In this document: positions 3,127 to 15,296 of the stretch, one piece after another
Numbering within the stretch: position 1 is the stretch's first letter
Layout of the letters: each line of letters starts with the position of its first letter
Made by a program: the position numbers and the translations under genes
Source of the DNA: Ignavibacteria bacterium
Lineage (GTDB): Bacteria > Bacteroidota > Ignavibacteria > Ignavibacteriales > Ignavibacteriaceae
Length of the DNA: 64,000 nt
Direction: 5' to 3'
NCBI GenBank assembly: GCA_030684555.1
Contig: JAUXVN010000013.1
Location: 62,001-126,000, forward strand
The notes under the pieces: generated by a model
Told to the model about the DNA's origin: nothing
The model's input: only the letters and a program-made list of their open reading frames with translations
Databases searched by the model: none

Positions 3127-4029
3127 TTAATCATCATCATGTTTCTCCCTTTTCTTCTTTTCACGCTCGTTTCGATTCTTCCCTTTGGCTTCATCTTCGT
3201 CTCCTGAACGATGGCATTTCACGCAGTTGATAAAATCGGATATTCCTTCTTTACGGTGTTTTTCAGCAATCCGAGCTGGCTGATGTTCATGACAATTATA
3301 ACATGTATAAAATTCGAAACTCTTCTGGACATCATGACACTTACTACAATCGGATGGATGATGTTTATCGAATCTGAAATATTCAGAGTGTTCAAAAGTA
3401 GACGGCTTCCATCCAGAAGTGGTATGACATTTAACACATAATATTTTTGAGGTTAGCCCTGCATGAAAATCGTCTTTAGGAATATTTGTAAAATGACAGG
3501 ATTCACAATCATTTTTATTCGAAGTAATTAGTTCATGTTTAAAAACTGCTGCAGTCCAAGTCTCAGTTGTATGGCATGAGACACAATTTTCAGAAATCCT
3601 ATTGTGAATTTTATCTATCGGCAATTTTTCTCGATGGCAGCTAACACAGTCATTTATTAATTGCACCGGTAAAACATTATGTCTGAAATTAAGTATTGCA
3701 TTTTCTTTTGATAATCCGTTATGCTCTGTATGACAATAATAACATTCAATGTTGTTAATAGATTTATGGAGTAAGTTCGTTTTAGGATTTTGGAATTGAA
3801 GAGTTAAACCTTCTACTGTTTTAATCCCAACTTCAGAGATATTATGACAATCTAAACATTTCTCTGTTGTTGGTCCAGAGCCAACAACATGACAGGCGAA
3901 ACAATTATTACGCAGTCCATCATGTCCTCTTACAAGAACACCCGGATTTACTGTGTAATAAGGAAATAGATAAATAGAAACTAAACCTAAAAGAATTGTT
4001 ATGGAAAAAAACATTCCGGTTCTATACAT
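3127..4029 (-). CDS. Membrane-anchored decaheme c-type cytochrome
   Basis: A 300-residue protein with one N-terminal transmembrane anchor (about residues 5-25) followed by ten CxxCH haem-attachment motifs (CFACH, CLDCH, CYYCH, two CVSCH, CESCH, CVKCH, CSKCH, CYNCH, CVKCH). No CxxCK or other catalytic-haem variant is seen, so it is predicted to carry electrons, not to be a reductase. The ATG at 4029 is chosen because GGAG lies six bases upstream and the start overlaps the stop of the preceding gene (ATGA); a longer reading from 4119 would overlap that gene by 91 bases. The last 25 residues are an alternating basic/acidic tail (KGKNRNEREKKKREKHDDD). Its immediate partner, a di-heme b-type membrane protein, suggests a quinol- or NADH-linked module delivering electrons to the periplasm. 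Confidence 0.85.
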   Translation of the reverse strand: MYRTGMFFSITILLGLVSIYLFPYYTVNPGVLVRGHDGLRNNCFACHVVGSGPTTEKCLDCHNISEVGIKTVEGLTLQFQNPKTNLLHKSINNIECYYCHTEHNGLSKENAILNFRHNVLPVQLINDCVSCHREKLPIDKIHNRISENCVSCHTTETWTAAVFKHELITSNKNDCESCHFTNIPKDDFHAGLTSKILCVKCHTTSGWKPSTFEHSEYFRFDKHHPSDCSKCHDVQKSFEFYTCYNCHEHQPARIAEKHRKEGISDFINCVKCHRSGDEDEAKGKNRNEREKKKREKHDDD

Positions 4030-4604
4030 CACCATCTCCACAAAAGAATAGTTATTATAATGTGAAGCAGGGCAAACGCAGCAAATATCATTGTAAGAGG
4101 CATGTGTACTTTCCTCCACTTCTGCATGGAATCAACTAAAAGAGAATTGAATAACAATTCTTTCTCCATCTCTTCAGTTGATAATGTTGAATCAATAAGT
4201 TCAGTCTTTTTTTTCTTCAAGCTCTCTTTAGCATTGTTGAGTAGATATTTTCCTGTTAAACCACTCGCAACAACTACTAACATTGAGAAGAGTGCAAGCC
4301 AGGGAATAACTGCATTAAAATGAATACCTCCATGAACTAATATCATTAATGCACCAAACCAACCAAGGAATTCGTGATTTTGCAAAAGTTTTTTTGGCGA
4401 ACCGGAACTGATTAGTTTTCTTTTACGAAGTGAATAAATGAATGAAAGTATAATCAGAAGTGTACCGACGAAACCTAAATATCTTCCAATCCAAACAAAC
4501 CCAAATTGATGGAAGATATAATCGATCAATATTGTTAAGATAATTAGAGTAATAAAAAGTAGGACTGAAGGAATTACTTTCGATATAACAAATTTTATAG
4601 CCAT
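4029..4604 (-). CDS. Di-heme cytochrome b-like membrane protein (short paralogue)
   Basis: A protein of about 191 residues with four predicted transmembrane helices. Two helices each carry a pair of histidines exactly 14 residues apart (H-x13-H): HEFLGWFGALMILVH and HMPLTMIFAAFALLH. That is the spacing that binds two stacked b-haems in four-helix-bundle cytochromes b. The same four histidines and spacing occur in the 289-residue protein encoded at 14427-15296, so the two are paralogues. The ATG at 4604 is preferred over an in-frame TTG four codons earlier because a GAG element precedes it by seven bases. Its stop overlaps the decaheme start, implying translational coupling and probably a physical complex. 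Confidence 0.7.
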   Translation of the reverse strand: MAIKFVISKVIPSVLLFITLIILTILIDYIFHQFGFVWIGRYLGFVGTLLIILSFIYSLRKRKLISSGSPKKLLQNHEFLGWFGALMILVHGGIHFNAVIPWLALFSMLVVVASGLTGKYLLNNAKESLKKKKTELIDSTLSTEEMEKELLFNSLLVDSMQKWRKVHMPLTMIFAAFALLHIIITILLWRW

Positions 4605-4688
4605 TAAAAATCTCAAAAAGTTAGAAACAAAAAATAGATAATTTATTTCTATTCTTATATTTATTTAATTGTTAAGTAAGTCGAAAAA

Positions 4689-5033
4689 TTAAATTTCTAA
4701 ATTAACCACTTCGAAACTACCGTTGCAAATATGACCGGTCAGAGTTATATATTCAGAATTTTCTATCCCAGCTGGCACCAGCAATGTTGTTTGGATTAAC
4801 ATTTCAGTACCGTTTCTATCCTCTACATAAAATTGGGTTCCGTTATCACTTCCCATTTTTTGAATTCCTTTTTCCATAACTAGTTTTACAACAATTTCTT
4901 TTTGAACATGGCTGTCGCGGTCATAATCAGCAAAAGAACCAAGTCCTTTGAATGGTGAAAAATAAAAGAAGTAGACACTTATTAAAACTATACTCAACAA
5001 TAATGGCAAAATTAAATTTTGTTTCTTTAGCAT
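4689..5033 (-). CDS. Membrane-anchored CcmE-like OB-fold protein
   Basis: A 114-residue protein with an N-terminal transmembrane segment (about residues 7-27) and a small beta-rich domain. The pattern of KEIVVKLVMEKGIQKMG, FYVEDRNGTEMLIQ and EYITLTGHICNGSFEVVNLEI resembles the OB-fold of the cytochrome c maturation haem chaperone CcmE. The C-terminal histidine/tyrosine motif (HxxxY) that binds haem covalently in CcmE is absent; the chain stops just after the last strand. It sits between the 34-heme cytochrome and a di-heme b-type gene, so a role in haem delivery or as an assembly factor is plausible. The resemblance is by eye only; a generic OB-fold protein is the alternative. Confidence 0.45.
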   Translation of the reverse strand: MLKKQNLILPLLLSIVLISVYFFYFSPFKGLGSFADYDRDSHVQKEIVVKLVMEKGIQKMGSDNGTQFYVEDRNGTEMLIQTTLLVPAGIENSEYITLTGHICNGSFEVVNLEI

Positions 5034-5071: not shown

Positions 5072-7651
5072 TTAATCCAAAACTCTTTTATTCATTATTT
5101 TGTCACTTGTCCCATTCGGATGACAATTAAGGCAAGCAATACTATTATATGAATAACCATTCACACCGTTGTGTTCGCTGTCCATTTTACTTTTTCTATG
5201 CTCATGACAATCAATACAAGAAAATGTTGTAAAGGTGTTTGGTGTTCGATGACAATCCGAACAAGAGTTCCATTCATTTCGATGTTCTCCAGAATAAATT
5301 GGGAAATACAATACATCATGGTTGAACGATGAGGGGGACCATCCATTTGTAGTGTGACAAACTATACAATCCGTTGGAAACAGTGCCGTTATATGATTCG
5401 GGTTATTTTGTGGATTCTGAAAATCAGATTGATGACATGAATAACAAATTTGAGGAGTGCCTACATAACCGTTAGCATGGCACGATTGGCAGCTTACAGT
5501 CGTGTGCCTGCCAGTCAAAGGGAACTCTGTATTATTATGGTTAAAAGTTGAAGGTGACCATCCATTTGTAGTATGACATACTAAACAATCTGTTGGGAAA
5601 TTTGCAGTCATATGATTGGGATCATTATCGGGATTTTGAAAATCTGCTTGATGACATGAATAACATTCTTGTGGAGTGCCTACATAACCGCTTGTGTGAC
5701 ATGCTTGGCAACTTACAGTAATGTGCTTACCTGTCAAAGGGAACTCAGTATTATTATGGTTGAACAATGATGGAGACCAACCATTTGTACTATGACAAAC
5801 TGAACACTCTGTAGGATAATTTGCAGTAATATGGTTGGGATCATTATTGGGATTTTGAAAATCTTGTTGATGACATGAATAACAGTCTTGTGATGTGCCT
5901 GTATATCCACTTGAATGGCATGATGCACAACTTACTGAAACATGTTTTCCGGTTAATGGGAATGCGGTTGTACCATGATCAAACTGTGCCGGCTGCCAAC
6001 CAACAGTCGTATGACATGTTTTACATTCCTGCGAAAAATTTGCAGTTATATGATTAGGATCATTATTAGGATTTTGAAAATCTTCTTGATGACAGGAATA
6101 ACAAACTTGTGATGTCCCTGTATATCCATTTGAATGGCATGATTCACAGCTTGTCGTGGTATGTTTTCCGGTCAACGGGAATGCAGTTACTCCATGATCA
6201 AACTGTGCCGGCTGCCAACCAGCAGTTGTATGACATGTTTTACATTCATGTGAAAAATTTGCAGTTATATGATTAGGATCATTATTAGGATTTTGAAAAT
6301 CATTCTGATGACATGAATAACAATCTTGTGATGTCCCTGTATATCCACTTGAATGGCATGATTCACAACTTACTGCAGTATGCTTTCCGGTTAATGGAAA
6401 TGCGGTTGTACCATGGTCAAACTGTGTCGGCTGCCAACCAACTGTTGTATGACATGTTTTACATTCTTGTGAAAAATTTGCAATTATATGATTAGGATCA
6501 TTATTAGGATTTTGAAAATCTTGTTGATGACATGAATAACAATCTTGTGATGTCCCTGTATATCCACTTGAATGGCATGATGCACAATTTACTGTACTAT
6601 GTTTTCCGGTTAATGGAAATGCGGTTATACCGTGATCAAACTGTGTTGGCAACCAACCATTCGTTGTATGACATGTTTTACATTCATGTGAAAAATTTGC
6701 AGTTATATGATTAGGATCATTATTAGGATTTTGAAAATCATTCTGATGACATGAATAACAATCTTGTGATGTCCCTGTATATCCGCTTGAATGGCATGAT
6801 GCACAATTTACCGTAGTATGTTTTCCGGTCAATGGAAATGCGGTTACACCATGGTCAAACTGGGCAGGCTGCCAACCATTAGTTGTGTGACATGTTTTAC
6901 ATTCCTGCGAAAAATTTGCAGTAATATGATTGGGAACAGTATTAGGGTTCTGGAAATCTTGTTGATGACATCCATAACAATCCTGATTTAAACCGGTAAA
7001 AGAGTTGGAAGAGTGGCATGCAGAACATTCATTTATTTGATGCCCATCGGTTAAAGGGAAAAAATCGTGAACAAATTTTCCCTCAGCCCATTGTAATCTA
7101 CTTATGGAATGACAATCTGAACAATCGATTGAAAATCCGGCACTTATATGATTGGGATCTACTGTTTTTTCAAAATCAGTTTTGTGGCAATCATAACATT
7201 CAATTCCTTTCGGCTCAAAGATTCTATCAGCATAACCCGAATGACATTGACTACAATCAGCCGACAAGTGACTTCCCAACAAAGGAAATCTTCCCCGCTG
7301 GTGCAATTCTGTTATGTTCGGAATAATCCATGTTGATGTGTTATGGCAAGTAGCACATTCTTTGCTGACACTATTTTGATGAATATCTTTATGACAACTT
7401 AAACAATTTTGTTCAGCTTTGTTGAATACCAATGTTTCATGACATGAATTACAACCTACCGTTTTATGTTGTCCGGTTAATTCAAATCCAGTCGAACTAT
7501 GATTAAACTTAATTGTTTCTGAAAGTGGGATCCATTGTAATTCAGAATGACAATCGGAACATTCTAGATTGAAGTTACTGCCGTGTGGTGATTGGGCATA
7601 AATACCAAATCCTAAGATTACAAATAACACGAAAACCAAAAAAATACGCAT
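5072..7651 (-). CDS. Giant 34-heme c-type cytochrome with tandem three-heme repeats
   Basis: An 859-residue secreted protein with a signal peptide (about residues 1-20, cleavage near YAQ|SPHG) and 34 CxxCH motifs. The architecture is an N-terminal nine-heme region (to about residue 241), seven repeats of exactly 73 residues, and a four-heme C-terminal cap. The first Cys of each unit is at residues 251, 324, 397, 470, 543, 616 and 689, with the cap starting at 762. Each repeat carries three CxxCH motifs plus three further histidines (FDH, GKH and PNH), enough for bis-histidine ligation of all three haems. There is no lipobox, no obvious anchor, and no CxxCK catalytic site. It is a paralogue of the 19-heme protein at 9424-10911, with near-identical ends. 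A 168-bp gap upstream may hold its own promoter, though I see no convincing boxes. The likely role is a periplasmic or extracellular electron wire. Confidence 0.9.
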   Translation of the reverse strand: MRIFLVFVLFVILGFGIYAQSPHGSNFNLECSDCHSELQWIPLSETIKFNHSSTGFELTGQHKTVGCNSCHETLVFNKAEQNCLSCHKDIHQNSVSKECATCHNTSTWIIPNITELHQRGRFPLLGSHLSADCSQCHSGYADRIFEPKGIECYDCHKTDFEKTVDPNHISAGFSIDCSDCHSISRLQWAEGKFVHDFFPLTDGHQINECSACHSSNSFTGLNQDCYGCHQQDFQNPNTVPNHITANFSQECKTCHTTNGWQPAQFDHGVTAFPLTGKHTTVNCASCHSSGYTGTSQDCYSCHQNDFQNPNNDPNHITANFSHECKTCHTTNGWLPTQFDHGITAFPLTGKHSTVNCASCHSSGYTGTSQDCYSCHQQDFQNPNNDPNHIIANFSQECKTCHTTVGWQPTQFDHGTTAFPLTGKHTAVSCESCHSSGYTGTSQDCYSCHQNDFQNPNNDPNHITANFSHECKTCHTTAGWQPAQFDHGVTAFPLTGKHTTTSCESCHSNGYTGTSQVCYSCHQEDFQNPNNDPNHITANFSQECKTCHTTVGWQPAQFDHGTTAFPLTGKHVSVSCASCHSSGYTGTSQDCYSCHQQDFQNPNNDPNHITANYPTECSVCHSTNGWSPSLFNHNNTEFPLTGKHITVSCQACHTSGYVGTPQECYSCHQADFQNPDNDPNHMTANFPTDCLVCHTTNGWSPSTFNHNNTEFPLTGRHTTVSCQSCHANGYVGTPQICYSCHQSDFQNPQNNPNHITALFPTDCIVCHTTNGWSPSSFNHDVLYFPIYSGEHRNEWNSCSDCHRTPNTFTTFSCIDCHEHRKSKMDSEHNGVNGYSYNSIACLNCHPNGTSDKIMNKRVLD
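5369..6901 (-). repeat. Seven tandem 219-bp coding repeats (three hemes each)
   Basis: Seven head-to-tail units of 219 bp, with no indels between them, encode residues 251-761 of the 34-heme cytochrome. The five units at the N-terminal end of the array are nearly identical at DNA level; the last two (5369-5806) are more diverged. Alternation of SQEC and SHEC before the first haem motif of successive units suggests that some duplication steps copied two units (438 bp) at a time. Confidence 0.92.
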
Positions 7652-7819
7652 TATAACCCAATCGACTTTAATCTTTTAAAATAACAATAGGAAATGTTCA
7701 CACTGAAACTACATTATTAAATTTCAAGAGTAAAAATATAATAAAACCTCTATTATGAAAAATTCCTCAATTCATTTTTAATAAATAGACAATTCATCAT
7801 CTTACACTAATCTTAACAA

Positions 7820-9427
7820 TTAAAATCTAGTATTTATTTCTATAAAAAATCTATAATTAATATTTCTCTCCGAATTTATCATCTCTGCATTTAATGAGAG
7901 GAACGACTTTCCAAAGAGTTGCTGCGTTATATCAAAACCAAACAAATTTTGAGATATCGAAATATTGTTTTGGGATAATGTCCATGCAGTATTACTTGCA
8001 TATATAGACGTTGTTAATCGACCTTCAAAAAAAGGTTTACTAAATCGTGCTGAAATTATATTACCATTAGAAAAACTATTTAGAAGTCTTGAAAAATTTA
8101 ATGAAGCACTTCCCAGAAGGTATGGAACTTGAGACCATGTAACGTATCCATTATAGTTCGAAGAAGATTTTGTATCTCCTCCCATAAATCTATGACCGAA
8201 ATTTAACCCAATATAAACATCCCTCACAGGACGAACCGTTGCGCCAACTCTCAAGCCTTGTCTGGTTTCGTTCTCGTAAAGACTGTCAATAAAACTTTTG
8301 AAAGATTCAAGGTAAACAACGTTCTTTCTTGCATCGTAGGAAGCATTAAATGTTAACATTTTCGAAGCTGAAATTCTTGCACTGAAATAAAAACTGGTTA
8401 AGGATAACTCACTTTTGCGAATTCCCTTATTCATTGAGAAGAAATCCACTTCCGATGAAAAATTAATTTGTGTTAATGGAATGAAATCATTGTAATGTTG
8501 AAAATAGATAAATCTTCTATCGATGGAAGTTTTATACATCTGTTGAAAAAGTGCAAATGAGTTTGAGGTAAAACTTTTATTAATAGAATCATTTCTACTT
8601 AGAAAAAAACCGAATTGCGGAAGAATGTTAGTTGTACTATTGTTATCCCAATTCGGGCGTCTTCCTGCAATTATTCCCCCTTCAAAAAAAGAGAATTTAT
8701 GCTTGTAAAGTGCTCCATCAACTGCGCCTATATTTGAAACAGCATTATCTATAAATCTACCAACTGTAACCGATGATTTTTCATTGATGAGATATTTTAA
8801 TGAAAGGTCATAAATCCTAAGATGTTTGTTACTGCTTAACCGGAACTTATCCGGATCACTATTTTTGTAGGAATAAGTCATGTAATTATTGAATATTAAT
8901 TTTTTATCCATTAGTGCATCTGAATAATATGAGAAAGAGTAACGCCATCTTTGAAATGAATAATTACTGAATTCATTATTAAGTCCTGTATAAGATTGCA
9001 GCGAGAATCTTCCTCTTGATTGAGTAGTAATCCTTTTTTCCGATTTGATAATTTGAGAATTGAATTTCATCTTCGCTGCATTTATAGAATCTATCGATGA
9101 TGAATCTGGTAAAATTTTCTCAATCACTTCAACTTTGTTTTTTACTAAAGCAATCACGGTCTGGTTCATCACCAATTTAATATCTGATATATATTCTCCC
9201 GATACAGATTTGCTTGAGGTTTGCACTACTCTAACTACAGGTAACAATTTTTTATTCACTTCGGTAAAAAGTGTGTCCCCAATATTTATTCCAATAGTAG
9301 ATTCATAACCAACATAAATTTTTTGAATGCTAATAAAAGTAACTCTACCAGCAATTTTCTCTATGTTCGTTTGACTGAACATAATTATTGGTAAAAAAAT
9401 GAATAAAATTAATTTAATCCTTCTCAA
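7820..9427 (-). CDS. Outer membrane beta-barrel (putative porin of the cytochrome conduit)
   Basis: A 535-residue protein with a signal peptide (MRRIKLILFIFLPIIMFSQ) and a small N-terminal domain (about residues 25-105, SH3/flagellar-P-ring-like strands). The remaining 380 or so residues are amphipathic beta-strands with aromatic girdles (RWRYSFSYYSD, YNGYVTWSQVPYLLGSASL), ending in FIEINTRF, a C-terminal Phe. No haem motif is present. The start overlaps the stop of the 19-heme gene by 4 bases (ATGA), so the two are translationally coupled. Placement between two multiheme cytochromes mirrors porin-cytochrome conduits (MtrB/PioB/OmbB-type), but I see no specific sequence signature of those families. 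A specific sheath for a cytochrome is therefore an inference from context. Confidence 0.7.
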   Translation of the reverse strand: MRRIKLILFIFLPIIMFSQTNIEKIAGRVTFISIQKIYVGYESTIGINIGDTLFTEVNKKLLPVVRVVQTSSKSVSGEYISDIKLVMNQTVIALVKNKVEVIEKILPDSSSIDSINAAKMKFNSQIIKSEKRITTQSRGRFSLQSYTGLNNEFSNYSFQRWRYSFSYYSDALMDKKLIFNNYMTYSYKNSDPDKFRLSSNKHLRIYDLSLKYLINEKSSVTVGRFIDNAVSNIGAVDGALYKHKFSFFEGGIIAGRRPNWDNNSTTNILPQFGFFLSRNDSINKSFTSNSFALFQQMYKTSIDRRFIYFQHYNDFIPLTQINFSSEVDFFSMNKGIRKSELSLTSFYFSARISASKMLTFNASYDARKNVVYLESFKSFIDSLYENETRQGLRVGATVRPVRDVYIGLNFGHRFMGGDTKSSSNYNGYVTWSQVPYLLGSASLNFSRLLNSFSNGNIISARFSKPFFEGRLTTSIYASNTAWTLSQNNISISQNLFGFDITQQLFGKSFLSLNAEMINSERNINYRFFIEINTRF

Positions 9428-10911
9428 TCTAATCCTAATCTCTTTAAATGAATTGGTCTATCTTCCCTTCCATTGGGATGGCAGGTGAGACATGCATTGC
9501 TGTTATATGAATATCCACTCACACCGTTATGTTCACTATCCATTTTAGTCTTCCGATGCTCATGACAATCAATACACGAGAATGTAGTAAAGTCATTTGG
9601 GGTTCTATGGCAATCGGTGCAGTTTGTCCATTCGTTTCGATGTTTGCCTGAGTATATCGGAAAATATAAACCGTCGTGATTAAAGGTTGATGGTGTCCAG
9701 CCATTAGTTGTATGACATGATAAACATTCGGTAGGAAAATTTGAAGCAATGTGATTCGGATTGTTTGTTGTTCGTTCATAATCCGACCTATGGCATGTAT
9801 AACAATCAAGTGCGGTACCTGAATAACCGCTCGAATGACATGATTGGCAACTAACAGTTGTGTGTTTGCCGGTTAATGGAAACTGAGTTGTATTATGATC
9901 GAAAGTCGCCGGTTCCCAGCCATTTGTTGAATGACATGATTTACAATCCTGTGAAAAATTTGCTGTAATATGATTTGGATCGTTTAAAGGATTTTCATAA
10001 TCAGAACGGTGACACGAATAACAATCAATTGCAGTTCCGGAATATCCTCCTGAATGACACGATTGGCAACTCGCTGAAGTATGTTTTCCGGTTAAGGGAA
10101 ATCGTGTTATGTTATGATCAAAAGTGGCAGGTACCCATGAATTTATTGAATGACATGCTTTACAATCCTTCTCAAAATTAGCAGTTAGATGTTCTGGATT
10201 TGCAGCACTCACATAATCGCTTTTATGACATTCATAACAATCTTTAGAAAGTCCAATAAAACTGGACTGAGAATGACATAAAAAACAATCATTAATTTTA
10301 TGTCCACCAATCAACGGGAAAATATCATGAACAAAACTTGAATTAGTCCAGGCTACTTGATTAATCGAATGACATAATTTACAATCTGTGCTAAGACCTA
10401 CTGTTTTGTGGTTTGGATTTACTGTATTAGCATAATCAGTTTTGTGACAATTATAACAGTCAACATTTAATGGTTCGAATACTCTATTAGAATAACTTAA
10501 ATGACACTGACTACAATCTGCAGCGAGGTGACTCCCTACTAACGGGAACCTGCTTCTCTGATGCATTTCTGTTATGTTTGAAATATTCCAACTTGCTGTG
10601 TTATGACAATCTGCGCAATCTTTACTTACACTATTCTGATGAATATCTTTATGACAACTCAAACAACTCCGCTCACCGTTTGAAAAAACTAAAGTTTCGT
10701 GGCATGATATACAATTTAAAGTTTTATGTTGTCCGGTTAATTCAAAAACGGTTGTGTTATGTTGAAATTTTATATTTGCAGATATGGGAGTCCATTCTTT
10801 TTCTGAATGACACTCAGAACAATCTAATTTAAAACTACTCCCATGTGGAGATTGTGGAAAAACAATTCCAATAAAAGAAAAAACTAATATGATGTATGGC
10901 AAAATGCGCAT
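9424..10911 (-). CDS. 19-heme c-type cytochrome (short paralogue of the 34-heme protein)
   Basis: A 495-residue secreted protein with a signal peptide and the same mature start (QSPHGS) as the 859-residue paralogue. It has 19 CxxCH motifs: nine in the N-terminal region, two 73-residue three-heme repeats (first Cys at residues 250 and 323), and a four-heme cap starting at 396. The length difference to the paralogue is 364 residues, one less than five repeats. Extra FDH, GKH and PNH histidines per repeat support bis-His ligation. Its start codon lies inside the last 28 bases of the 20-heme gene, and its stop overlaps the start of the barrel gene. This tight coupling suggests it is the partner of that barrel. 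Confidence 0.9.
   Translation of the reverse strand: MRILPYIILVFSFIGIVFPQSPHGSSFKLDCSECHSEKEWTPISANIKFQHNTTVFELTGQHKTLNCISCHETLVFSNGERSCLSCHKDIHQNSVSKDCADCHNTASWNISNITEMHQRSRFPLVGSHLAADCSQCHLSYSNRVFEPLNVDCYNCHKTDYANTVNPNHKTVGLSTDCKLCHSINQVAWTNSSFVHDIFPLIGGHKINDCFLCHSQSSFIGLSKDCYECHKSDYVSAANPEHLTANFEKDCKACHSINSWVPATFDHNITRFPLTGKHTSASCQSCHSGGYSGTAIDCYSCHRSDYENPLNDPNHITANFSQDCKSCHSTNGWEPATFDHNTTQFPLTGKHTTVSCQSCHSSGYSGTALDCYTCHRSDYERTTNNPNHIASNFPTECLSCHTTNGWTPSTFNHDGLYFPIYSGKHRNEWTNCTDCHRTPNDFTTFSCIDCHEHRKTKMDSEHNGVSGYSYNSNACLTCHPNGREDRPIHLKRLGLD
9727..10164 (-). repeat. Two tandem 219-bp coding repeats (three hemes each)
   Basis: Two adjacent 219-bp units encode residues 250-395 of the 19-heme cytochrome. 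They have the same period and motif layout as the seven-unit array in the paralogue at 5072-7651. Confidence 0.85.
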
Positions 10912-12473
10912 TTAAAATCAGCTAATTTGTAATTAATAAATATTATTCCATTTTTTTCAGCAGGTTTATGACAACTATTACATTCAAGTTTACTGTGAGC
11001 ACCACTCAAATTAAACCTTGTTTTATCGTGATTAAATTTTTCCGGTTTCCAATTATCGAACGTATGACATTTTTCACAAACAGTAACACCATTTTCAGAA
11101 AATTGTCCAATGTGAATGTCTTTATGGCAGCCTTCACATTTTTTATCAACTGATTCGAAGACTATTTTTTTGCCGTCATAATCCTGTTTTACATGGCAGT
11201 CAATACAGTTTTTTGCTGCATGTTTTCCTAATAATGCAAATCCTGTCAATTTGTGTTCAAAAGTTACAATATTCCAACCTTCTACGCCATGACACAGCGC
11301 ACAATTGTTGTTAATTAAATATTTTTCTTTCAACTCTGTTTTGTGAATATTTTCATGACAATCGATACAATTATTTCCTTGTTTATCAAAAGTCCAAATC
11401 TCATTCTTCAGATGACAATTACTACATGGAAGAGCTAAATGTTTTCCGGTCAGTGGAAATTTCGTTTTTTGATGTTCTTCTAAAGTGAATAACGAGGGTG
11501 TAAATCCTTCCACTGTATGGCATACCGAACATTCCCCTTTATTTTTATGATTTGCAAATTCAGTTTTGTGATAATCTGAATGACAATCTGAACAATTTTG
11601 GTGTTTCAACTTTGCGGTTAAATTAGTTTTATGACACGTTGAACATTCAACCTGGATATGTTTACCAAGAAGCGGAAAGATTGTTTTGTTATGATCAAAG
11701 GATGATTTATTGATGTCATGAAAACTATTGGTATTATGACATTTGGTGCAATCATTCCCAAATTTTCCGTTGTGAACATCTTTATGACAAGAAAGACAAC
11801 TCGAAAAGTTTATACCTTTAAAAGTCTGAAAATCTTTTCCGTTTTTTTTCTCCTTTGTATGGCATTTTATACATTCAGTATCTTTATGCTTCCCGGTCAA
11901 GTTAAATTTAGATTTTGTGTGATCAAAATTAACTGCTGGTTTGAAGGAATTAAACCCATGACATGAAGAACAATCACTCCCCAAAGTTTTTTGATGATAA
12001 TCAACATGACATGAAAGACAGTTTTGCTCTAATCCTAAAAAAGTAAATTTTCTTTTTTTTAGTTTTGAATCAGAAATATTTTTTGATGTATGACATTTTT
12101 CGCAGTCTGTTTCTTTGTGTTTTCCTTTCAGCTCGTAACCGGTTTTAATATGATCGTAATTGTTTTTATCGAACCGAATTATCTTGAAATTTCTACCATG
12201 GTGCTCACTATGACAATCCCAGCATTCCTTATTCTTAATCTCATTTGAAGAATGATAACCTCTTCCTTTATTAATCAAATTTTTAAGTTCAACATGACAA
12301 TTAAGGCATTTAGATTTTTCAACTTTTTCACCAAGCTGATGACAATTGGTACAATTGCTCAATCCTTCAAGCTTTGCGTGTGCTTTTGATAAATCGCCCG
12401 GAGAAATTTGACTGTAAATTTCAAAAGAAGAAATAAGTAGGATCAAAAAAATAATTCTAATAATATTTATCAT
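10884..12473 (-). CDS. 20-heme periplasmic c-type cytochrome
   Basis: A 529-residue protein with a signal peptide (MINIIRIIFLILLISSFEIYSQ) and 20 CxxCH motifs, spread to the very C-terminus (CAFCHTSY). Recurrent GKH, FDH and DYH/DIH histidines between the motifs could provide sixth ligands. The architecture is looser than in the 19- and 34-heme proteins: repeats of about 65-75 residues are visible but are interrupted by lysine-rich loops. No CxxCK site is present. Its start overlaps the stop of the Fe-S/FAD oxidoreductase by 4 bases. The lysine richness and position suggest a soluble periplasmic carrier between the inner-membrane module and the outer-membrane conduit; that order is inferred from gene order only. 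Confidence 0.87.
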   Translation of the reverse strand: MINIIRIIFLILLISSFEIYSQISPGDLSKAHAKLEGLSNCTNCHQLGEKVEKSKCLNCHVELKNLINKGRGYHSSNEIKNKECWDCHSEHHGRNFKIIRFDKNNYDHIKTGYELKGKHKETDCEKCHTSKNISDSKLKKRKFTFLGLEQNCLSCHVDYHQKTLGSDCSSCHGFNSFKPAVNFDHTKSKFNLTGKHKDTECIKCHTKEKKNGKDFQTFKGINFSSCLSCHKDVHNGKFGNDCTKCHNTNSFHDINKSSFDHNKTIFPLLGKHIQVECSTCHKTNLTAKLKHQNCSDCHSDYHKTEFANHKNKGECSVCHTVEGFTPSLFTLEEHQKTKFPLTGKHLALPCSNCHLKNEIWTFDKQGNNCIDCHENIHKTELKEKYLINNNCALCHGVEGWNIVTFEHKLTGFALLGKHAAKNCIDCHVKQDYDGKKIVFESVDKKCEGCHKDIHIGQFSENGVTVCEKCHTFDNWKPEKFNHDKTRFNLSGAHSKLECNSCHKPAEKNGIIFINYKLADFKCAFCHTSY

Positions 12474-13807
12474 TTTCGATGAGACAACAATGCCTCTCCA
12501 AATTTTTTAGTAATAGTAATTCCGGTTTTCTCAAGAAACTGGGTGGGTAGTTCACCTCCGGCAAAAATATAGACCAGATCATTCGTCAGTTTAATAGACT
12601 CTTTTGTTACTGAATTTTCTAACAGAACTAAATCATCTTCAATCTCAATAACGTTTGTGTTAAATAAAATATTGACTAAACCCTGTTTTCCTGCATGAAG
12701 AATACGTTCATTGTTTTTAGGTTTTATTCGTGCAAAATTAGCAGCTCTATAAGAAAGAGTTACATCATTAGAATTTTCTGCAAGCAATAATGCCGATTCA
12801 ATTGCAGAATCACCACCGCCAACAACCAATATTTTCTTCTTGTTTATTAATTCAGGTTCCAACAAACGATAATAAACATTTTCCTTTTCCTCTCCTTTAA
12901 CACCAAGTTTGCGCGGTGAGCCTCTTCTGCCGATCGCTAAGAGGATTGAAGAAGCCGTATAGTTTTTTTTATCTGTAAAGAGAGTAAAAACATCCTTTTC
13001 TTTTTCAATTGCAGTTACTTTTTCTAACTCATTAATGCTAATAATATTTTTTTCGAGAACTGATTTCCATATAGAGATAAGTTCCGCTTTTGAAGTTTCG
13101 GTTAATTTAATTTTACCCCAAAGCGGGAGTTCCATTGGTGAAGTCATAACAATTTTATCCCGTGGAAAATTGGAGACTGTTCCACCAAGACTCTCCTGTT
13201 CGATAATTTGAAATTTCAAATTGTGCTTCTTTGCATTTAGAGCAGCAGAAATTCCGGCTGGACCCGCACCGACGATAATCAAATCATTTTCTGCATTTGA
13301 TTTTTTCGGTAGCTTTTTGACAATATAATTAACTGCTTGCTTTCCCTGTTCAACGGCATTCTTAATCAAACCCATCCCACCAATTTCACCTGCAATAAAA
13401 ATGAGCGGAACACTAGTTTCAAATTCAGAACTTACATGTGGAAGTTCAACTCCGCGTTTCTCGGTTCCAATACATAAAGTTATTGCTTGAACAGGGCAAG
13501 CATGAAAACATGCACCATGTCCAACACATCTTGAAGCATTTATTACTGCGGCTTTACCGTTTCTCCATCCAAGTATATCTTTTTCCGGACATGCTTCAAT
13601 ACATGCACCGCTTCCGATACAAGAATTTATATCAACAACAGGATGAAGAGATACGGGTTCATAAAATCCACCTTCTTTCGCCTTCATTATTTTCTGCTCT
13701 GTAATGGAAGTGCGCTTTGCTGTCTTTTTGAGGTATCTCCAAAAAATGACGATAACTACTATAGCTGTTATGACGTATGCTGCAATATTTTCAATTAAAA
13801 CTTCCAT
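12470..13807 (-). CDS. Membrane-anchored ferredoxin-FAD-NAD(P)H oxidoreductase
   Basis: A 445-residue protein. Residues about 5-24 form one transmembrane helix followed by KKTAKR, placing the rest in the cytoplasm. Next comes a ferredoxin-like domain with two motifs, CIGSGACIEACP and CVGHGACFHACP. Then follows a thioredoxin-reductase-like flavoprotein fold with an FAD site (VGAGPAG, about residue 177) and an NAD(P) site (VVGGGDSAIE, about residue 330). Both ferredoxin motifs lack the second cysteine of the usual CxxCxxCxxxCP (Ser and His occupy that place), so the cluster type is uncertain. It is encoded 3 bases after the TPR gene and overlaps the 20-heme gene. The likely role is exchanging electrons between NAD(P)H and the membrane/cytochrome chain. 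Confidence 0.82.
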   Translation of the reverse strand: MEVLIENIAAYVITAIVVIVIFWRYLKKTAKRTSITEQKIMKAKEGGFYEPVSLHPVVDINSCIGSGACIEACPEKDILGWRNGKAAVINASRCVGHGACFHACPVQAITLCIGTEKRGVELPHVSSEFETSVPLIFIAGEIGGMGLIKNAVEQGKQAVNYIVKKLPKKSNAENDLIIVGAGPAGISAALNAKKHNLKFQIIEQESLGGTVSNFPRDKIVMTSPMELPLWGKIKLTETSKAELISIWKSVLEKNIISINELEKVTAIEKEKDVFTLFTDKKNYTASSILLAIGRRGSPRKLGVKGEEKENVYYRLLEPELINKKKILVVGGGDSAIESALLLAENSNDVTLSYRAANFARIKPKNNERILHAGKQGLVNILFNTNVIEIEDDLVLLENSVTKESIKLTNDLVYIFAGGELPTQFLEKTGITITKKFGEALLSHRK

Positions 13808-13810
13808 AAA

Positions 13811-14416
13811 CTATAAACGATCTATTGAGGTTGAAGCTAATTGTGCGGTAGGTGTTTCGGGATATTTTTTAATTATTTCCTGCCAGATTTTTTTTGCTTT
13901 ATCTTTATCACCTTTAGCGGCGAAAATTGCACCAAGATTGTATTCAGCTTGTTCATCATTTTTATCAAAAGATAAAATTCGATTCGTGAATTCTTCAGCT
14001 TTGATTAAGTCTTGATTATTGAAGTATATTATTGATAAGTTGAATAGAACATCTTTTCTTTTGGAATTAATTTTCAATATTTGGTCGTAATACTGAATAG
14101 CTTCAAGCGGTTTATGACCTTCATTTAGAAGGTCAGCATATTGGCGCATAGACAAAGTATCTTTTGGATTTGATTCAACTTTTAATTTTAGATCCGCTAA
14201 TTGTTTGCGAAAATTCTCATTTACATTCGCCCTTGTTGGAGTTTCGGCATTCCCCAGGTTTTTATGTACATCGTCCATCGGCATTTGTTTCTCCTCAATC
14301 GAACTGAGTGGAGTTGATGTTTTCTCCTTTTCAAATTGAGTTACAAGAATGACACCAACAACCAGAATTAAAAAAAATGCCGGATAAAATATTTTTGTTG
14401 AAAATTTAAAATTCAT
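13811..14416 (-). CDS. Membrane-anchored TPR protein of the cytochrome operon
   Basis: A protein of about 201 residues. The ATG at 14416 is chosen because AGGAG lies six bases upstream; an earlier in-frame ATG at 14449 would overlap the preceding gene. An N-terminal transmembrane segment (FFLILVVGVILV) is followed by a charged linker and three to four tetratricopeptide repeats (e.g. ALEAIQYYDQILKINSKR-like, AEEFTNRILSFDKNDEQA, AKKIWQEIIKKYPETP). The layout resembles CcmH/NrfG/CycH-type TPR proteins that present apocytochromes to haem lyase, and its operon encodes cytochromes, so a scaffolding or maturation role is plausible. The alternative is a generic complex-assembly factor. Confidence 0.7.
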   Translation of the reverse strand: MNFKFSTKIFYPAFFLILVVGVILVTQFEKEKTSTPLSSIEEKQMPMDDVHKNLGNAETPTRANVNENFRKQLADLKLKVESNPKDTLSMRQYADLLNEGHKPLEAIQYYDQILKINSKRKDVLFNLSIIYFNNQDLIKAEEFTNRILSFDKNDEQAEYNLGAIFAAKGDKDKAKKIWQEIIKKYPETPTAQLASTSIDRL

Positions 14417-14426
14417 AATTAACTCC

Positions 14427-15296
14427 TTAAAAAATCCATTTATATCCAAAAAGAATCGTTACTCCAACGTGGATTAACATAATAACGAACATCGTAATTG
14501 CAAAAGGCAGATGGAATATATGCCAATATCTAAAAAGCCGATGCATCAATTTTAAGTGCTGAATTCTTCTGGACATTATTAATCTTTCTTTTAATCTGTT
14601 TATAGTTTCAACAACTTCAATTTTACTAAGTCCTTTTTCTGTTTTCAGTATAGATTTTATCGACCTTAATAATTTCCGAATCTGAAACATATCTCTAACT
14701 ATGAATATTAAACTGTTTACCGCCGTAATATTCCGATATCTTTCCCCTGATAAATATGAATCTACTTTAGACCTAATATCATTATTTAGATTTATGCTTG
14801 ATGTAAAACTTTGTTCTAATTGATTTTGAAGTTCTTCTAAGTCAATCTCTTTTCCTTGAATGGTTCGAGGAATCTGAATGTAAATAAATCTACCGATCAC
14901 ACCACTCAAAACTACTGCAACCATACTCCAAAAACTTATTGAGACTATTCCGCCAAATTTAAATGCCGTATGAAACAATACAAGCAATGGTCCAACACTG
15001 CACAAAAACATATGGAACTCTAACCAATTCTTTAAATAGCCGAATGAAAACAAAACACGCATTCTTTTACGAATCATATAAACAGAAACTCCAATGATCA
15101 TCATCAGAGTACCGATTATTCCTAACCCGTGACCGATATAACCACTTGGCTTTAGCAAATCATGTTTAATATCAAACGGACGCTCTTCCAATTGAAGTGA
15201 ATAGTAATCAACTCCATGATAAATCAGAAGAAATAGTGAGGTTATCCCTACGGCAAAAAATATTCCGATATAAATACGATGAAGAGTTTTATTCAT
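14427..15296 (-). CDS. Di-heme cytochrome b-like membrane protein (long paralogue)
   Basis: A 289-residue protein with about five transmembrane helices, first gene of the 12-kb cytochrome locus. Two helices carry H-x13-H pairs (HMFLCSVGPLLVLFH and HLPFAITMFVIMLIH), the geometry of a two-b-haem four-helix bundle. A cytoplasmic or periplasmic insertion of about 90 residues with coiled-coil character (about residues 145-245) separates the third helix from the last. The final 30 residues and the histidine layout match the shorter paralogue at 4029-4604. It could be a quinol dehydrogenase feeding the multihemes, or it could pass electrons from the adjacent NAD(P)H oxidoreductase. No family name is certain. 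Confidence 0.68.
   Translation of the reverse strand: MNKTLHRIYIGIFFAVGITSLFLLIYHGVDYYSLQLEERPFDIKHDLLKPSGYIGHGLGIIGTLMMIIGVSVYMIRKRMRVLFSFGYLKNWLEFHMFLCSVGPLLVLFHTAFKFGGIVSISFWSMVAVVLSGVIGRFIYIQIPRTIQGKEIDLEELQNQLEQSFTSSINLNNDIRSKVDSYLSGERYRNITAVNSLIFIVRDMFQIRKLLRSIKSILKTEKGLSKIEVVETINRLKERLIMSRRIQHLKLMHRLFRYWHIFHLPFAITMFVIMLIHVGVTILFGYKWIF

Follow-up and report, generated by a model that had tools for sequence, protein, structure and literature searches.

A porin-cytochrome locus of an Ignavibacteria bacterium with repeat cytochromes that vary in three-haem steps

Genes of the locus

The window analysed here comprises 64,000 nucleotides of an Ignavibacteria bacterium contig (JAUXVN010000013.1, positions 62,001 to 126,000) and carries a gene set that, judged from its sequence, probably moves electrons across the cell envelope (Table 1). 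Both reading frames that an earlier note on this DNA had placed here, of 859 and 495 residues, were found at those sites on the minus strand; they encode two repeat cytochromes, A and B, whose genes flank that of a predicted 22-strand outer-membrane barrel. The operon order IMP-(TPR)-FeS/FAD-C-A/B-porin is kept in relatives, where IMP denotes the inner-membrane protein and C the constant-length cytochrome, which is the probable periplasmic partner. Two WX3HX13H motifs recur in 62 of 74 IMPs, and SGXXG in all 74. The nearest named relatives are Ignavibacteriaceae.

Table 1. Position and basis of assignment of the features at the locus (window coordinates)
Feature	Position	Strand	Basis
Decahaem cytochrome, 330 aa, one membrane helix	3127..4119	-	motif count, Pfam, helix prediction
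Second, short IMP-like protein, 195 aa	4029..4616	-	two HX13H, SGXXG; 28% identity to IMP
Small protein, 114 aa, hydrophobic N-terminal stretch	4689..5033	-	ORF
A, long repeat cytochrome, 859 aa, 34 haem motifs	5072..7651	-	ORF, CXXCH count, Pfam Cytochrome_C7
Four-haem C-terminal end of A	5075..5368	-	motif spacing, coordinates
Seven three-haem units of A, 73 residues (219 nt) each	5369..6901	-	TRF, unit alignment
Nine-haem N-terminal part of A	6902..7561	-	motif spacing, coordinates
Barrel (porin), outer membrane, 535 aa	7820..9427	-	AlphaFold2, matches to OM barrels
B, short repeat cytochrome, 495 aa, 19 haem motifs, n = 2	9424..10911	-	ORF, CXXCH count, unit comparison
Four-haem C-terminal end of B	9427..9726	-	coordinates
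Two three-haem units of B, 73 residues each	9727..10164	-	unit comparison, coordinates
Nine-haem N-terminal part of B	10165..10821	-	coordinates
C, constant-length cytochrome, 529 aa, 20 haem motifs	10884..12473	-	motif count; conservation
Flavoprotein, N-terminal membrane helix 3-21, 4Fe-4S domains	12470..13807	-	Pfam Pyr_redox, Fer4
TPR protein of operon	13811..14449	-	Pfam; neighbour also kept in relatives
IMP, inner-membrane protein, 289 aa	14427..15296	-	five hydrophobic helices, two WX3HX13H, SGXXG

Three-haem units in A, B and their homologues

A and B, with 34 and 19 CXXCH motifs, have the mature start QSPHGS in common, as the earlier note had observed, and share the nine-haem N-terminal part described there: motifs 1–9 are spaced identically (36, 16, 16, 34, 19, 25, 32, 16), at 59% identity over 253 columns. 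The last four motifs likewise show identical spacing (35, 15, 28), and the C-terminal ends are 72% identical (residues 688–854). The four-haem cap claimed previously stands as a common end; as a unique cap it was dropped, the 35/15/28 unit type also occurring inside longer homologues. Between the shared ends lie seven units in A and two in B, the values of n originally counted, each of exactly 73 residues. The unit had also been called exact, which holds for its length but not for its sequence. Units 4–8 of A are 84–92% identical to one another at the protein level and units 9 and 10 are 81% identical, while the units of A and the two of B share 62–67%. At the DNA level, 219-nt units within one gene reach 93% identity, and Tandem Repeats Finder (TRF) reported a 219-nt array at 5330–6982 with 7.5 copies and a score of 1695, which excludes chance.

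The length difference of 364 residues, one short of 5 × 73, was confirmed and could be broken down further into 5 × 73 + 1 − 2; the gap from motif 9 to motif 10 measures 26 residues in A and 25 in B, and the tail of B is two residues longer than that of A. The proposed formula of 9 + 3n + 4 haems fits the counts but is one possible cut, as motif spacing resolves each whole protein into three-haem units plus one terminal haem, or 3m + 1 overall (34 = 3 × 11 + 1 and 19 = 3 × 6 + 1). An AlphaFold2 model of A, based on an alignment of 27 sequences, gave values too low for use of the fold (pLDDT 52.4, pTM 0.21), a point against the conduit reading given below, in which the units may stack linearly. 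The A/B cytochromes have hydrophobic N-termini, and a lipobox was found in none of 105 A/B proteins.

The 105 distinct A/B homologues carry between 9 and 94 haems, and the 3m + 1 rule holds for 97. Under a strict CXXCH count, the rule held for 68 of 88 homologues; most exceptions carry CX3CH or CX4CH at an expected motif place, and including these forms raised the count to 83 of 88, a recount made after the exceptions had been inspected. A fairer test, with the counting rule fixed beforehand, used 17 further proteins from additional loci fetched by the porin profile, and 14 of these followed the rule; the three misses are a single 9-haem form, present in three genomes that belong to one family. 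Among the 88, the five exceptions comprise two paralogues at locus L064, in each of which one unit has lost a haem, a broken gene at L132, and genes with runs of N at L097 and L103, the L103 pair probably being a single gene broken by N. Decay of units, seen in the haem losses at L064 and in the 9-haem lineage, which is without the terminal haem, is an observation that speaks against a conduit function.

The tree requires no fewer than 51 changes in haem number but only 3 in phase. Because the unit spans 70–78 residues in other homologues, the quantum is three haems and not 73 residues; the earlier expectation of integral multiples of 73 thus fails in residues and survives as multiples of three haems. 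Growth by whole three-haem units, as first proposed, is borne out by these counts and by the existence of 13-haem forms (n = 0). Two species of one genus have 43 and 31 haems, a difference of one four-unit block, and at locus L060 most neighbours among 11 units are 60–70% identical. All 88 homologues have at least one non-motif histidine per haem, and the family median is 25.4 residues per haem. C has 20 haem motifs in 63 of 78 cases, 23 in seven and fewer in the remaining eight. In a search of titles and the opening lines of abstracts in the openly available literature, we found neither a published three-haem rule nor a report of this operon in Bacteroidota.

Likeness to PCC3 and other systems

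The AlphaFold2 model of the porin (mean pLDDT 82.7) has an N-terminal beta domain at about residues 22–96 and 22 strands from residue 137. It matches outer-membrane barrels, the best matches being barrels other than MtrB, which is absent among the matches listed. The porin gave no Pfam match. Its profile gave a chance-level match only against PDB sequences, a point that weighs against reading the locus as a conduit.

In layout the locus corresponds to PCC3, which has been described in Proteobacteria as a putative porin-cytochrome conduit (He et al. 2017, PMC5566968), and we liken the two by published description, layout and motifs. As described there, PCC3 pairs one extracellular with one periplasmic cytochrome, its cytochromes carry very many haems at 22–39 residues per haem (median 26), and its IMP has about 300 residues, five helices, two WX3HX13H motifs and SGXXG. 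In the window and in relatives, the barrel gene likewise adjoins a multihaem cytochrome gene, and the IMP of 289 residues shows five hydrophobic stretches and both motifs. With 34, 19 and 20 motifs, the cytochromes here qualify as haem-rich in the PCC3 sense: the very haem-rich cytochrome has 34 here against a published median of 34, the second has 20 against 21, and both sets combine few residues per haem with sequence repeats. The differences lie in the hosts, reported as Alpha-, Beta- and Gammaproteobacteria (PMC5566968) but Ignavibacteriota and Bacteroidota here, in a flavin/iron-sulphur gene within the operon, and in a barrel of 22 predicted strands compared with up to 42 regions in print. 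IMP matches on proteobacterial plasmids were rejected as PCC3 and belong to smaller operons instead; the Legionella match H5 was left out. For Gallionellaceae PCC3, conduction range has already been proposed in print to depend on haem number (PMC10734462), and the extracellular subunit described there takes haem numbers such as 10–16 and 18, unlike A/B, which vary in threes.

Resemblance to other systems is partial. A, B and C exceed the gathering score of 24.8 bits for PF14522 Cytochrome_C7 (116.6, 68.1 and 64.7 bits). Profile matches to GSU1996 (3ov0) were obtained, and like it and TIGR04257 (nanowire_3heme) proteins the repeats form a chain of three-haem c7-like domains; GSU1996, described as periplasmic, has 12 haems in four such domains (PMC10138318); A lies below the TIGR04257 cut-off (37.8 against 40 bits). 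MtrCAB, MtoAB and PioAB share the pairing of barrel and multihaem cytochrome genes, and MtrA with ten haems is near the 9–13 of short A/B forms, but A and B (27.4 and 31.8 bits), as well as C (38.9), fall under the cut-off of 192.2 for the DmsE family (TIGR03508). Large cytochromes of Burkholderiales and Anaerolineales also set a constant smaller beside a variable larger cytochrome, and their haem number varies among close relatives by insertion or deletion of CxxCH domains; a three-haem quantum is not among the features described in that account, which calls such variability an unexplored area of protein evolution (PMC7399161). The present operon family provides a clean rule for it: a three-haem quantum, a phase that is kept and a constant partner.

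A putative conduit and its alternatives

On the modules, the 3m + 1 rule, operon conservation, the barrel prediction and the IMP motifs, we consider it somewhat probable that the locus encodes a trans-envelope electron conduit of PCC3 type, with A/B threading the barrel and the repeats directed outward. The flavin/iron-sulphur protein and the b-haem-type IMP would exchange electrons with the cytoplasm or quinone pool, the 20-haem C would span the periplasm, and A/B-type cytochromes would pass through the barrel across the outer membrane. Their conserved nine-haem N-terminal part would sit on the barrel or periplasmic side while the repeats run outward; location, direction and threading are inferred, as is a reach set by repeat number. 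In this view each repeat is a three-haem unit of c7-like type that supplies one non-motif histidine for every haem, so that tandem duplication and deletion would lengthen or shorten the protein a whole unit at a time. A lineage-specific duplication may then have produced the 19- and 34-haem copies on either side of one barrel gene.

The near-constant C beside A/B forms of 9 to 94 haems suggests a fixed gap for the former and an open-ended one for the latter. The same range is unfit for a fixed gap and makes it improbable that A/B span the periplasm with the 20-haem cytochrome elsewhere, even though A/B have no lipid anchor, which also counts for the conduit, and a Gallionellaceae PCC3 cytochrome called periplasmic has 21, 24 and 27 haems, in steps of three (PMC10734462). 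Nor do we think it likely that the repeats mainly add redox capacity rather than reach, as a capacitor would. Such a role has been discussed for GSU1996 and large PCC3 cytochromes (PMC10138318, PMC7399161, PMC10734462), but the genes have a fixed place next to that of an outer-membrane barrel, in a conserved operon order, which conduction across the membrane fits better; storage and conduction are not mutually exclusive.

A stronger, though still minority, possibility is neutral drift, in which the tandem arrays would gain and lose DNA units freely, every count, zero included, serving equally well once the outer membrane is crossed. The lability of haem number, the 43- and 31-haem forms within one genus, the identity of up to 93% among 219-nt units of one gene and loci holding a 13-haem form alone are all consistent with drift. 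It sits less well with the preservation of phase and ligands across deep divergence, with long forms that persist without collapse despite diverged units, as at L060, and with a tendency of short and longer forms to pair in two-copy loci.

Two-copy loci usually combine a 9–13-haem form with a longer one, whereas the window has 19 and 34. A complete copy with at most 13 haems occurs in 12 of 16 multi-copy loci but in 6 of the 65 single-copy loci whose gene is complete, figures uncorrected for kinship, with loci distinguished by exact porin sequence only; four of the 16 include a cytochrome copy cut by an edge (L109, L124, L137, L156), and 3 of 87 porin loci have no A/B copy within the stretch examined. 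Duplicates that share their two ends could be rivals for a single barrel rather than links in the same chain, a possibility that counts against the conduit reading. Within that reading, we tentatively suggest, as a rather speculative extension, that C (20 or 23 haems) acts as a periplasm-sized fixed ruler beside an outward arm evolving in three-haem steps, the copies tending after duplication to specialise as a minimal 9–13-haem membrane plug and a longer arm, with unit number tuned to partner distance.

The forms of 9 to 94 haems constitute a natural length series that allows haem-chain length to be tested against electron-transfer reach or rate, and it includes named strains: Emticicia oligotrophica DSM 17448 has a form with 40 haems, and Hanstruepera and Mangrovibacterium have forms with 16.

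Modular architecture of the paired cytochromes

The long (A) and short (B) repeat cytochromes are both encoded by real ORFs (Table) and, as the earlier note had claimed, share a nine-haem N-terminal part and a four-haem end, with the same motif spacing across the first nine and last four haems. Between these conserved ends lie seven units in A and two in B, in agreement with the proposed repeat numbers. The unit itself, previously described as an exact 73-residue repeat, is exact in length (73 residues, 219 nt), but the sequences differ between units. The five A units adjoining the N-terminal part are 84-92% identical among themselves; the following pair share 81% identity, and comparison of A units with the two repeats in B gives 62-67%. 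The 364-residue difference between the proteins is indeed built on 5 x 73, the exact sum being 5 x 73 + 1 - 2. Because the close-identity group in A comprises exactly five units, these extra units may represent a later amplification. In a tree of the nine-haem part, A and B form a sister pair (SH-aLRT 89), pointing to a duplication that probably happened within the window's own lineage; the nearest named neighbour is an Ignavibacteriaceae MAG (L070).

Coordinates of the features (in the window unless a locus prefix is given)
Feature	Position	Strand	Length (aa)	Haem motifs
A, long repeat cytochrome	5072-7651	minus	859	34 (CXXCH)
B, short repeat cytochrome	9424-10911	minus	495	19 (CXXCH)
Three genes downstream of A	3127-5033			
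Most haem-rich homologue, Saprospiraceae MAG	L141:11224-18318		2364	94
Homologue with eleven 70-residue units	L060:10735-14964			58
Operon on Emticicia plasmid pEMTOL02	L148:8899-20697			
Porin relative interrupted by two in-frame TAG codons	L154:9456-10883			

A three-haem quantum among homologues

Read by motif spacing, each entire protein consists of three-haem units plus one last haem (3 x 11 + 1 for A, 3 x 6 + 1 for B), a form we denote 3m+1. From 122 A/B-like ORFs, 100 were clear of edges and 88 distinct, and 83 of these 88 carry 3m+1 haems, ranging from 10 to 94, when motifs are counted as CX2-4CH; strict CXXCH counting gives 68/88. The broader count was made after inspection of the exceptions, most of which had CX3CH or CX4CH at the expected haem place. 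A further set of 17 full proteins from 15 more distant regions yielded 14 at 3m+1, the remaining three being one nine-haem form, for a combined 97/105 (an Emticicia protein is additional). The expected integral modularity extends across homologues as a three-haem rule, but the 73-residue unit is true of the window's genome only, with 70-78 residues elsewhere. Where a porin locus holds one copy and its gene is complete, the rule is followed throughout (65/65).

Kinship does not account for this pattern. On the tree, which omits two of the 88 proteins (the second piece of a broken gene, L132, and the L103 protein, broken by N bases in the sequence), haem number must have changed 51 times or more among 82 rule-keeping rows, but phase (the remainder on division by three) only three times among all 86. 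Two species of one genus, with 43 and 31 haems, differ by exactly one four-unit block. Non-motif histidines number at least one per haem in 88/88 homologues, sufficient for possible bis-histidine ligation throughout.

In several lineages (L089, L105, L119, L076, L080, L049, L134, L142, L129, L041 and others), one haem site in the last units frequently reads CX3CH or CX4CH, so that strict counting misses a conserved haem there. Three genomes of one family (L162, L164, L166) have a nine-haem, porin-adjacent form without the terminal haem, each with a longer 3m+1 copy. The 94-haem homologue adjoins a 13-haem paralogue. In the 58-haem L060 protein, most adjacent units share just 60-70% DNA identity, which means that an extended array can be ancient.

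Constant partner and a putative conduit

The minus-strand gene run encodes, in order, an inner-membrane protein (IMP, 289 aa), a TPR protein, a flavin/4Fe-4S protein, the 20-haem cytochrome C, B, a porin and A. After A come genes for a small protein, for a short protein resembling the IMP and for a decahaem cytochrome that carries a membrane helix. In the IMP there are five hydrophobic stretches, a pair of WX3HX13H motifs and SGXXG. The porin had no match in Pfam or NCBIfam; its AlphaFold2 model is good (pLDDT 82.7, pTM 0.63) and shows a barrel of 22 strands from residue 137 onward, counted from the listed elements with one three-residue element omitted. A small beta domain at the N-terminus precedes the barrel. 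In structural comparison, the porin model matches outer-membrane barrels best, among them siderophore receptors and OprD-like porins, with Z reaching 18.8.

Whereas A/B ranges from 9 to 94 haems, C is nearly constant: among its 78 distinct full ORFs, 63 have 20 haems and seven have 23, and eight carry fewer motifs, some of them being two halves of a broken gene. More distant regions gave 20 in 12/13 and 23 in 1/13. Two or more A/B copies occur in 16/87 porin loci, and a complete copy of at most 13 haems is found in 12/16 multi-copy versus 6/65 single-copy loci. Relatedness is not corrected for in this comparison, and the 16 include broken or cut copies. With its pair of 19 and 34 haems, the window departs from this minimal-copy pattern.

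The gene set fits an electron conduit in which the IMP and flavin/iron-sulphur protein would act at the inner membrane, C would span the periplasm and A/B would pass through the barrel. A constant C beside a freely varying A/B would suit a fixed gap (the periplasm) for C and an open-ended space (outside) for A/B. Profile matches of A (3.4e-4) and C (2.7e-10) to GSU1996, a dodecahaem protein of four c7-like domains, make a c7-like chain plausible. The title of the GSU1996 structure paper gives 12 nm; by extrapolation, a similar rise would predict ~19 nm for B, ~34 nm for A and ~13 nm for a 13-haem form.

Similar known systems and distribution

The component set matches that of the proteobacterial putative conduit PCC3 (He et al. 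2017, PMC5566968), for which median haem numbers of 34 and 21, repeats and a molecular-wire proposal are described; Gallionellaceae PCC3 cytochromes (21/24/27 and 10-35 haems) were modelled as long and mostly linear, with an extended conduction range proposed (PMC10734462); insertion and deletion of CxxCH domains among close relatives is already published (PMC7399161); and lake metagenomes yielded putative novel PCCs in Bacteroidetes. Going by its components, we call the window's operon PCC3-like, not a PCC3 member. Titles and abstract openings listed by literature searches contained no three-haem quantum with kept phase, constant partner or short-plus-longer pairing for this operon.

The porin is present in 30/59 relatives, and its profile was positive in 27/296 genomes sampled from the phylum; all 79 named loci of one set are labelled Ignavibacteria, Chlorobiota, Bacteroidota or unspecified bacterium. 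In Emticicia oligotrophica DSM 17448 (complete plasmid record), the operon lies on a plasmid, with 23 haems in C and 40 in A, immediately downstream of the cytochrome c biogenesis gene ccsA, possibly a mobile conduit package. The L154 porin relative stands without an adjacent repeat cytochrome and looks decayed; the same genome has a second operon (L155). Downstream of A, the 114-aa protein, short IMP-like protein and anchored decahaem cytochrome, none matched as such in 30 regions from relatives, resemble an additional, smaller electron module of the inner membrane.
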